This document shows, one piece after another, positions 7,272 through 10,716 of a stretch of 64,000 nt of DNA (positions are counted from its first letter, which is position 1; each line of letters opens with the position of its first letter). Under the pieces are notes generated by a model. The model did not search any database. It saw only the letters and a list, made by a program, of their open reading frames with translations, and was not told where the DNA came from. The DNA comes from Roseovarius sp. Pro17 (GTDB lineage Bacteria; Pseudomonadota; Alphaproteobacteria; Rhodobacterales; Rhodobacteraceae). The DNA lies in the NCBI RefSeq assembly GCF_035599575.1, contig NZ_CP141179.1, positions 186,001 through 250,000 of the forward strand, read 5' to 3'. Made by a program: the position numbers and the translations under genes.

Positions 7272-8018
7272 ATGCATCTCGATGTGCAGGAGTTACGGAA
7301 TTTCTACTATCGCAGCACGCTGGGCCGGGCTGTGCAAAAAACCGTGCGCAATGAGATCGCTGAGGCTTGGCCAGAAGCCAAGGGGCAGACGGTGGTCGGC
7401 TTCGGCTTTGCCGTGCCATTCCTGCGTCCCTATCTGGCGGACGCGCGGCGCGTCATCGCCCTGATGCCGGGGCCTCAGGGGGTCATCGCGTGGCCGCAGA
7501 AAATGCCGAACATCTCGGTTCTGTGCGAGGAAACCAAATGGCCGCTGGAAACCGGCTATGTCGACAAATTGCTGGTCATGCACGGTCTGGAGGCAAGCGA
7601 ACGGCCCGCCGCGCTGCTGAATGAATGCTGGCGAGTGCTGGGGCCGGGGGGATCGGCGCTGTTCGTCGTGCCGAACCGCGCGGGGCTGTGGTCGCGCAGC
7701 GATCGCACGCCTTTCGGGTCGGGGCGGCCCTATTCGCAGACCCAGCTTGAGGCGCTGCTGAAATCGCACAGCTTCCTGCCCGAGCGCCATATGACCACGC
7801 TCTATCAGCCGCCCAGCACACGGCGTTTCTGGCGCCAGACCGCCGGCATGTGGGAGCGTTTGGGAGGCAACCTGTCGATGATCGCCTCGGGCGGCGTGCT
7901 GATTGTCGAGGCAACCAAGCGCATTCAGGCGCCGCGCGGACCGGGCCTGCGCAACGCGGTGCGCAAGCCGCTGGAGGCGCTTAGCCCCACGCCCAAACCT
8001 GTGGCGGGTCAAGCATAG
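7272..8018 (+). CDS. Class I SAM-dependent methyltransferase domain protein
   Basis: The product has 248 residues. The N-terminal part ([20 protein letters not shown]) is a nucleotide-binding turn resembling motif I of SAM methyltransferases, though not a textbook GxGx[21 protein letters not shown] near residues 115-135 is the usual methyltransferase motif around strand 5. The C-terminal 50 residues are basic. The substrate is unknown. It is divergent from gloB and followed by a clear terminator at 8060-8091, so it is probably monocistronic. Confidence 0.75.
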
Positions 8019-8059
8019 AAAAGCCGGGTGCATGGCCCAGCGCCTTACGGCAAATGTTG

Positions 8060-8091
8060 AAGCTCGCAGCCTTTACGCTGCGAGCTTTTCT
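8060..8091 (+). terminator. Rho-independent terminator of the methyltransferase gene
   Basis: A perfect 11-bp stem (8060-8070 with 8077-8087) encloses a 6-nt loop, CTTTAC, and is followed by a T-rich stretch (TTTTCTTTTC). It lies 41 bp after the stop of the methyltransferase gene and isolates it from the accessory island that begins at 8149. Confidence 0.85.
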
Positions 8092-8148
8092 TTTCGCTCT
8101 TCCATTTCCCTATCTGCCAAGCATCCCAGTCGATAGGAGAAGAAACGG

Positions 8149-8513
8149 ATGGCAAAGCTCCTTGGCGCATCGGATGGCATCTCGCGAGTTCGCATCGACC
8201 CTTCGTGGAGAAAGGGCTTCGTCATCGTGTGTGGGAAAGGCTTCCGTTCCACCAAGTATTTCCCGGATGACATCGAGACGATGCGGCAGATGGATGAAGA
8301 AACCTATCGCTCTGCCGGCGGTGCGGCCGGCTGGGCGATTGCTGGCGGCGTCTTGACCGGTGGTCTTGGATTACTCGCCGGAGCAGCCATCGGGGGCGCA
8401 GGCGGCATCATGCGATCTACCTGATCCGGCTGCGCGACAGAAAGCATGTGGCATTCCACGAGACCGATAAATCGGCGCTGAAGGTTCTGCAAAAGCACTA
8501 CATCAAGCTTTAG
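8149..8513 (+). pseudogene. Small conserved-type protein with a glycine-zipper segment, one-base frameshift
   Basis: The gene starts at ATG 8149 behind AGGAG and reads 91 codons to a TGA at 8422. The last seven codons look wrong. The +2 frame continues with a coherent tail (IYLIRLRDRKHVAFHETD, then LQKHYIKL) to a TAG at 8511. Adding one G to the G5 run at 8392-8396 joins both parts into one protein of 121 residues: a basic beta-rich N-terminus, a Gly/Ala-rich hydrophobic hairpin (about 56-84), then RRR and a soluble tail. Family not recognised; the hairpin suggests membrane association. The base loss could be a true mutation, a phase-variable G-tract or an assembly error. Confidence 0.65.
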
Positions 8514-8529
8514 GCCCAAGTGCCCAAAT

Positions 8530-10283
8530 CTACATGAAATCCCGCTCATAAACCCGCCCGCGTGCGAGCCCGATCCGCATCGCGGGCGTTTTCTTGTCAT
8601 CGCCCGGATCGCACCAGTTGTGGTAGAATCGGTATATCTGCACCATCTTGGCCATCACCTCCGGCTTATAGAGATACTGCTTGTCCCAAGTGCGGCCGAC
8701 ATTCCCGCTGGAAATGGACGGTCGAGAGGCGAAGCGGACATTGGAACGGAACTTGTGGAAGTAGGAACCCACGCTCCGCAGGGTCGCGCGACGGATCAGG
8801 CGTGCTGCCGACATCGCATCGCGTCCAGGCCGCCAGGTCGGCACCTTCACCACCTTGTTCGGCTCGGATTTCCTCGAGAACGGAAAACGGGCGCCGAGAT
8901 TCAGCGGCCATCCCATCACCTGGATTGACAGCGCGAAATCGACAGCCGGGCATAGTCTTTGTCGGATAGCTGCCGGATCTGGTTTATGAGCATCCCGGAG
9001 ACCCCCGATAGCAGTGCCTGCCCTGCCGCGACGGTGTAGTTGCGCATATCGTTGGTCATCTCCTTATCGAAGCTGACAACCGCGATCTCGGCTTTGCGCT
9101 GACATATCTCTTCGACAAATGCCGCCTGAAACGCCTGCTGCAAGCCGCGGTCGTCATCCATCACCATCAGGAGCGGCACATCGGCCCCGGAAAGCATCTG
9201 CTGGACCCGAAGAGCGTGGGCATACTGGAGGATGTCATAGCGCACCAGGACGCCCTGGTGGGGCAGCTGGTAGAGTTCGATCTCCTGCACCTTCTGCCGT
9301 TTCTTGAGGCGCACGAGGTAGTCTTGGAACTCGGTCTTCGTCCAGATGCGCGCATGTTGGCGGAACGCGACCGAGAGGCTCTCCTCGTTGGCCGCGAGGG
9401 CCTGCTCCTCGGCTTGATCCATCGTCATCGTGGGGTCGAACTGGAACGCTGCCTCCATGATGAACCCGGAGCGGTGATGTGCCGTGCAGAGATGTTGGAC
9501 CGCCACCGGTGTCCGCTTGCGCTTTGTCGGCCAGTTCAGCATCAGCGTCTGGCTGTCCGTGGCGAACCGTGAGCCGACCTCCCGGAAATCAACCCGAGAG
9601 AAATCCTCACGCTGGGCGATGAATCCCTGGATCTGGTCGTGGAAGAAGTCGATCTTGCCGTAGAGATCGCGGTAGGAGGTGTCGGTAATTTTGCAGATCT
9701 TCGACAACGACACCTCGTTGCACAGCATCTGGAAGATCACCCGGTTCTTGTCGCTTCGCAGATGCCGGCGCGCCGGCTGGCCGATCAAGAAGGTCTTCGA
9801 GCACAGACGGCACTGGAAGCGCGGATCGCCATTCGCCGTCTTGCTGAACCGCCGGTAGAACTCGGGATGCGCCTCGGGCGCCATCCCCTGCGCGAAGCAT
9901 CCCGGCGTCTTGCAGGAAGGCACGGTTGGATCGTGCTCTTGCAAATGCTTGAGGCGTTGGTTTTCTTCGGTAATCGCGCAGTTATTCTTGATCCGCGAGG
10001 ACTTGTTGCAGGTTGGGCATTGAAAGAACTCTTCGTGCTTCGTGCTTCGTGCTTCGTGCTTCGTGCTTCGTGCTTCGTGCTTCGTGCCTTTGACCTCGCC
10101 TCGCAGGACGTCCGGCGGTGCCGGTGGTTCTCCACCTGGCCTTTTGAACGGGTCCGGATGCACACCGAAGCTGCCGCACGCGGGGTTGCGGCAAAAGTTT
10201 AGGTCGAGCCCCCCGAAGGCTTCGGGACACCTCCGCTCCAGAGGCGGATTTTCTGTCGAAGATATTTTCGAGACAAAACTCAC
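8530..10283 (-). pseudogene. Transposase-like zinc-ribbon protein, frameshifted, containing a 7-bp repeat array
   Basis: The gene starts at GTG 10283 behind a GGGAGAG ribosome site. The first zinc ribbon begins CRNPACGSFGV. A KHEARST heptapeptide repeat follows, encoded by 10031-10086. A second ribbon (FQCPTCNKSSRIKNN, then CKTPGC) and a third (FQCRLCSKTF) lead into a helix-turn-helix-like segment. The next part, with FATDSQTLML and LLMVMDDDRGL, could be an RNase-H-like DDE core. After residue 455 the frame stops at 8916, but the next frame continues the protein (MGWPLNLGARFPF to VYERDFM) to 8530, so one base appears to be missing near 8925-8950. I read it as a decaying transposase; I found no terminal inverted repeats or target duplication. 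Another DNA-binding function is not excluded. Confidence 0.6.
10031..10086. repeat. Eight perfect tandem copies of a 7-bp unit (CTTCGTG)
   Basis: The 56 bases are eight exact copies of CTTCGTG on the plus strand (CACGAAG on the coding minus strand), with no variants. Because 7 is not a multiple of 3, gain or loss of one unit shifts the frame of the surrounding gene. Because 7 and 3 share no factor, every frame reads the same heptapeptide (KHEARST), so the array itself has no stop in any minus-strand frame. With eight copies the zinc ribbons on either side are in the same frame; that also holds at 2, 5 or 11 copies. Confidence 0.95.
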
Positions 10284-10716
10284 CTGATCTCTCCCTCTGA
10301 GAATGCGTCAAGTGTCTTGTCTGGAAAGGAATGTTGGCCACAGTGCGGCCAACAGAACCAATTATTTCAACATTTGCCGTAAGGGGCTGGGGTGCATGGC
10401 AGGTGCAGAGCGGGACGTGCGAGGCCTAGGTTTAGCGCAAACATCGCCAGAGTGCCCCGGTGCCAGAATCGCCAACCGACCCACGGCGCGCATATTTTTT
10501 CGCCTCAAAATGCTGCACAATGCGCCTCACCCTGATTACAGGTTTGAAAACAAAGCCATTTCTCAGCCATTCGCGCGGCGCATAGCAACTTGCCGGATAC
10601 CGATTGCTCTGCTAGACCCACGCCGGATTACAGTGATAAGAGTAACTGAATGCTCGCCAACGCCCCTCAGATGCAGCCGCGTCTGTCGCAGGGGCCTAAT
10701 TGTCGAAAGGGTGGAC
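10284..10716. other. Intergenic region upstream of the ATP synthase operon
   Basis: This 433-bp stretch separates the transposase-like gene from atpH and is more AT-rich than its neighbours in places. It should hold the atp promoter, but I see no convincing -35/-10 pair. An inverted repeat at 10332-10354 is the only clear structure. The atpH frame is open across it, but that upstream part does not resemble ATP synthase sequence. Confidence 0.6.
10332..10354. repeat. 8-bp inverted repeat with a 7-nt spacer
   Basis: TGTTGGCC (10332-10339) is repeated in inverse as GGCCAACA (10347-10354). No T-tract follows on either strand, so an operator or a mobile-element remnant is more likely than a terminator. 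It lies about 50 bp upstream of the transposase-like gene start and about 360 bp upstream of atpH. Confidence 0.5.

Follow-up and report, generated by a model that had tools for sequence, protein, structure and literature searches.

The window analysed here, a 64,000-nucleotide stretch of the Roseovarius sp. Pro17 genome, carried an insertion element between a methyltransferase-like gene and an ATP synthase operon (both named by eye from their translations). On sequence features, the element would be classed as an insertion sequence: it encoded a transposase-like gene, was bounded by terminal inverted repeats and, in the window copy, by direct repeats, and was present in two copies. Within the organism's own genome, a DNA search found both copies and, besides them, a single short row representing a match of one inverted repeat to the other. 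The second copy comprised the whole element and was identical to the window copy at 2374 of 2379 aligned positions; no direct repeat was found at its ends. The features of the window copy are collected in Table 1.

Table 1. Features of the insertion element and its transposase gene, in window coordinates
Feature	Position	Strand	Basis
Insertion element, 2354 bp	8037..10390	-	inverted repeats, direct repeats, second genomic copy
Terminal inverted repeat, gene-start end, CCAGCCCCTTACGGCAAATGTTGAA, 25 bp	10366..10390	-	terminal repeat comparison
Terminal inverted repeat, gene-end side, 24/25 identical to the other	8037..8061	-	terminal repeat comparison
Direct repeat GGTGCATGGC, 10 bp, perfect, likely target-site duplication	10391..10400	.	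flank comparison
Direct repeat GGTGCATGGC, second copy, likely target-site duplication	8027..8036	.	flank comparison
ORF of 455 aa, GTG start; transposase N-terminal and central part, holds the array	8916..10283	-	ORF list, homologue alignment
Remainder of that transposase (C-terminal, 129 aa), read in another frame and overlapping the 455-aa ORF at its end	8530..8919	-	60% identity to homologue
Putative first zinc knuckle CRNPAC (C31, C36), upstream of the array	10176..10193	-	invariant cysteines; coordinates counted from translation
Heptanucleotide array, GAAGCAC units on the gene strand	10031..10087	-	57 bp, 8.1 perfect units
Putative second knuckle CPTC (C89, C92), downstream of the array	10008..10019	-	invariant cysteines in alignment
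Second cysteine set, C124/C129 and C158/C161	9801..9914	-	invariant cysteines in alignment
Possible passenger ORF, 91 aa, glycine-zipper-like, maybe incomplete	8149..8424	+	ORF list; weak family matches only

The two copies differed at five positions, four of them within ~70 bp of the gene-start end (window 10324-10390, compared with the second copy, L018), which may reflect gene conversion; the fifth was in the array. Outside the gene-end inverted repeat, the copies also had ~23 bp in common (window 8014-8036; around 8715-8737 of L018). In the closest relative compared (L180), the neighbouring methyltransferase gene ended differently, from about the point where the shared 23 bp begin. The possible passenger ORF was encoded on the strand opposite to the transposase and, by eye, its stop codon was followed by a coding-like stretch in another frame (8149-8520).

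The transposase gene was split near its 3' end. The window ORF had 455 codons, 14 of which were an insertion, whereas the intact homologues L014, L025 and L026 were single ORFs of 577, 568 and 568 codons respectively. The last ~130 residues of these intact homologues were encoded in another frame in both genomic copies of the element, which were identical there. Over 129 residues, this C-terminal part matched residues 441-568 of an intact homologue of 568 aa at 60% identity. At the split, as judged by eye, a start codon overlapped the stop codon, an arrangement that would allow two separate polypeptides to be made. Programmed -1 frameshifting was rejected as the origin of the split, as the overlap contained no canonical slippery heptamer (by eye) and the intact homologues were single ORFs. 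Several other homologues were fragmentary or had internal stops, and decay is thus a common state of this transposase family. As the displaced C-terminal part has kept 60% identity to an intact homologue, the gene may have been broken only recently, and the array perhaps arose while it still worked.

Alignment of six proteins, the window ORF and five homologues, revealed eight cysteines that were invariant in all six (6/6) and were arranged as two CxxxxC...CxxC sets; an ATD motif and the first aspartate of an MDDD motif were invariant across the same six transposases. The cysteines probably pair into two zinc ribbons. No Pfam family scored above its cut-off for the transposase ORF, PHROGs returned a weak transposase match (E 0.0042), and a profile search of solved structures with eight sequences returned zinc-finger chains only. 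The best NCBIfam match was NF033558 (IS1 family transposase), which gave the window ORF 26.2 bits and the intact homologue L014 37.5 bits, so that neither qualified as an IS1 family member at the cut-off of 100 bits. The element nevertheless resembled the IS1 family (IS1/IS1595) in its zinc-binding N-terminal region, in its inverted repeats and in direct repeats of 9-12 bp. Besides the score below the cut-off, it differed in that the intact homologues had a single ORF of 568-577 codons and that the elements were ~1.9-2.8 kb long. Members of the IS1 family have two ORFs joined by programmed -1 frameshifting; this trait was not found in L014, L025 or L026, each a single ORF, and no canonical slippery heptamer was seen by eye in the overlap of the window gene.

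Homologues of the transposase were found in 5 of 60 relatives, in 18 of 394 genomes of the family and in 26 of 390 genomes of the order, each count including the organism's own genome, and in two of the three genomes of the genus of a close homologue. Relatives on Rhizobium phaseoli and Marinobacter plasmids (accessions: NZ_CP013583.1 and NZ_CP152381.1; L175 and L176) were annotated just as hypothetical proteins; these plasmid elements had inverted repeats matching at 25 of 25 positions and direct repeats of 9-10 bp each.

Analysis of the window with Tandem Repeats Finder placed an array with a period of 7, 8.1 copies and 100% match at 10031-10087, within the transposase ORF. Its score of 114 was the highest of the 38 rows reported for the window, the runner-up scoring 47. 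A two-unit pattern allowing at most one mismatch had six matches in the window, every one within the array, against 0.03 expected, and none of 100 shuffles reached six. All three minus-strand frames through the array were open, each giving rotations of KHEARST, and a plus-strand ORF (9639-10202) also ran across it. The preliminary description, which had reported a perfect 7-bp array within a coding sequence and the same heptapeptide in every open frame across it, was therefore confirmed by repeat finding, shuffles and open frames. It had also placed the array between two zinc ribbons; cysteine motifs do flank it on both sides, but it probably lies inside the first putative ribbon, in the loop between CRNPAC and CPTC, to judge from the positions of the invariant cysteines.

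A three-unit pattern was present at two places in the whole genome, the window array and one more, and, among 84 genomes of the genus, in the organism's own genome only (1/84). In 478,001 sampled genome bases, 20 kb of which were counted twice where a sampled stretch overlaps the window, heptamer runs of three or more exact units occurred only as the arrays of the two element copies. Genome-wide heptamer slippage was rejected on this basis, the sample being without any further heptamer array of three exact units. Hairpin-driven slippage was also rejected: folding of the single-stranded array DNA was weak on one strand (z -0.54; 58/200 shuffles as good) and modest on the other (z -2.01; 9/200 shuffles as good). 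Both genomic copies of the element, in the one genome, had eight units, and this agreement between two near-identical copies is weak evidence of stability. A substitution lay inside one array unit of the second copy, so that its units were no longer all perfect; those of the window copy were.

The array was replaced in silico by 1-12 units. This revealed that the ORF stayed open to its present end with 2, 5, 8 or 11 units, and that the other eight unit numbers led to a stop after 88-170 residues. The preliminary description had stated that each gain or loss of a unit shifts the frame, which was borne out in silico when one or two units were added or removed. The two flanking cysteine motifs share one frame at eight units, as it had also stated of the ribbons. 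The locus thus has two properties of a neuO-type system: a heptamer array inside a coding sequence and, over the 12 unit numbers modelled, a reading frame set by the number of units. The third, a downstream gene that is intact in the on state, was found in neither copy.

Comparison with homologues indicated that the array looks young. Conservation among the homologues extends to either side of it, so that a gene start downstream of the array can be dismissed. In all 35 homologous loci compared, which were picked as spanning the linker and include near-identical copies, the linker was 36-48 residues long, against 57 residues in the window protein; in nine of the 35 it was 43 residues, exactly 14 codons (six units) shorter. 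Three weak matches had been left out: one spans the linker and has the short form, two align poorly, and none has the heptapeptide. The close homologue L024 (63% identity, among the two closest) has GKRHEEYFQC where the window gene has GTKHEARSTKHEARSTKHEEFFQC, from which the array amounts to 14 added codons, that is, 42 bp or six units. By eye, L024 has a single unit-like stretch at the position of the array. The heptapeptide was absent from all 56 homologous loci for which a sequence was available, which were scanned whole and some of which overlap, as were two tandem units in any phase, in agreement with the recent expansion suggested by the preliminary description. A plasmid search returned no similar DNA, and a scan of viral contigs for the exact upstream junction, which would have revealed other array lengths, gave 0 matches.

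We consider it probable that the array arose by slipped-strand expansion, from a short seed, within a decaying transposase gene, and that it is most likely tolerated and not used. The seed, of about two units, would have lain in the transposase linker that belongs to the first zinc ribbon; replication slippage would then have lengthened it by about six units (42 bp, 14 codons), with neither the frame nor the remaining N-terminal protein being lost, in a loop whose length varies among homologues. The gene is now split close to its 3' end in each genomic copy. The slippage mechanism, the two-unit seed and the absence of function are what we infer from these comparisons. The added linker length is plausibly tolerated because linker length varies among the homologues, and the split near the 3' end in both copies makes it most likely that the array is tolerated rather than used. 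As a counterpoint, eight is among the one in three unit numbers that keep the frame and the protein is otherwise well conserved, both of which could also be explained by selection for a functional protein at the time of expansion. Polymerase slippage has been proposed for heptanucleotide repeats, and heptanucleotides were the most abundant longer repeats in most genomes, according to earlier surveys as summarised in the available text of PMC4679880.

The preliminary description proposed a possible phase-variable switch. On this reading, the unit number would toggle the transposase on (2 modulo 3) or off, as in the neuO array. A real precedent for a coding heptamer of this kind exists: in the available text of PMC13001214, neuO encodes a capsule O-acetyltransferase that is made at full length if the gene has a repeat number that is a multiple of 3, and has 3-53 repeats among 64 genomes. 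As in neuO, which lies on the CUS-3 prophage of E. coli K1, the array here is a coding heptanucleotide array in a mobile element and keeps the frame at every third unit number, and the perfect identity of the window-copy units would also suit a switch. From its sequence, the array may be said to have the architecture of a NeuO-type heptanucleotide contingency locus, as a candidate only. However, the neuO repeat number varies between isolates and the gene can be full length, whereas the present gene is split and showed no variation in unit number. With the C-terminal part displaced into another frame in each copy, a full-length transposase cannot be obtained at any number of units. Against a switch, too, both copies have eight units, the units of the second copy are no longer all perfect, and no variant length was found in the one genome of the species or in the single viral-contig junction scan. 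A switch is thus unproven and disfavoured, and we regard it as unlikely.

Less likely still is a rheostat, in which in-frame additions of three units would lengthen the loop of the zinc ribbon and tune DNA binding or activity without switching it. In its favour, the added codons preserve the frame and fall in a linker that differs in length between homologues, and a longer neuO repeat region is said to raise catalytic activity (available text of PMC13001214, citing earlier work), but no homologue compared has an array and the ORF is without its C-terminal part.

The heptamer itself was also sought elsewhere, the preliminary description having stated that similar arrays occur in diverse bacteria. 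At least four exact units were present in 76 stretches from many phyla in a collection of 84,980 species, although 14 of the 76 came from one assembly. Those stretches contained 83 arrays of 4.0-18.1 units, some clipped by the locus end; for these, the ORF test used does not distinguish genuine genes from frames that are open by chance. In viral contigs the heptamer was found in 2 stretches, and five random composition-matched heptamers in 2, 8, 7, 6 and 3. A special abundance of this heptamer was therefore rejected, its viral-contig frequency being not above that of the five controls; the statement holds for the spread of such arrays, with this qualification as to their frequency. The single assembly with 14 stretches was an alphaproteobacterial metagenome assembly, RIFCSPLOWO2_01_FULL_40_26 (MEMO01 contigs; L051-L053, L056, L061, L068, L079, L085, L086, L093, L097, L103, L115 and L123), and its arrays had 4.4-5.4 units and often similar flanks. 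The exact heptamer strings and the heptapeptide were not found in the literature searched. In the available text of PMC4679880, long heptanucleotide simple sequence repeats, surveyed earlier by others, and TAACTGA direct repeats are likewise perfect short heptamer arrays found sporadically across bacteria, and horizontal spread has been suggested for the TAACTGA repeats. Unlike TAACTGA arrays, described there as mostly intergenic and many per genome, the present heptamer forms one coding array per element copy and two in the genome.

Insertion here of a ready-made array of a dispersing heptamer, in place of expansion on site, would accord with the 76 stretches from many phyla but is very improbable. 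Homologous sequence directly abuts the array at either end, and the array extends from the residues HEE, which are also present in the closest homologues. The flanks of the other arrays, as judged by eye, have no sequence in common across organisms, only sometimes within one genome, and the heptamer is no commoner than its composition-matched controls in viral contigs. Equally remote is the idea of a length-counting governor, in which two of every three slippage states would silence the N-terminal part, the split protein would work as two polypeptides, and array length would set the frequency of transposition cell by cell. Slipped-strand expansion within a decaying gene remains our preferred reading, and we place the array among coding heptanucleotide arrays, a known kind, here in a decaying insertion-element gene.

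The insertion sites of related elements were also compared. An inverted-repeat pair together with a direct repeat was found in 13 of the 23 homologous loci tested and not in the other 10; these 13, with four more sites examined separately, gave 17 insertion sites. Around the duplicated bases, a stem score of at least 10 was obtained at 10 of the 17 sites (L019, L020, L023, L024, L011, L195, L196, L198, L199 and L200) against 0.4% of 20,000 random positions of the sampled genome, and a score of at least 7 at 13 of the 17 against 6.2%, contrasts that are overstated as the control positions were random and not intergenic. Several of the hairpins were followed by a run of T, as in intrinsic terminators. 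Elements of this family thus often lay in the loop of intrinsic-terminator-like hairpins, with direct repeats of 9-12 bp. Stem scores at the L026, L197 and Rhizobium plasmid sites were 6, 3 and 4 respectively, and the folding energy of L195 was within that of its shuffles (21/200). The joined flanks of the second Roseovarius copy folded strongly (z -6.9; 0/200 shuffles), at a site without a direct repeat and with its boundary set a few bases wide. The relatives are possibly a terminator-targeting insertion-sequence family, but the site of the window copy does not fit, having a stem score of 3 and folding no better than its shuffles (147/200 as good).

No title or abstract in the literature searched described insertion into terminator hairpins by such elements. 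Nor did any describe contingency-locus control of insertion-element mobility, which is no proof of absence. If the array is the product of slippage alone, the locus would offer a clean case of a coding heptamer array expanding by a frame-keeping multiple, with a comparison of sequences with and without it. If a switch were true, it would be an insertion element with its mobility under contingency-locus control. The insertion of the relatives into hairpins may matter more than the array itself.
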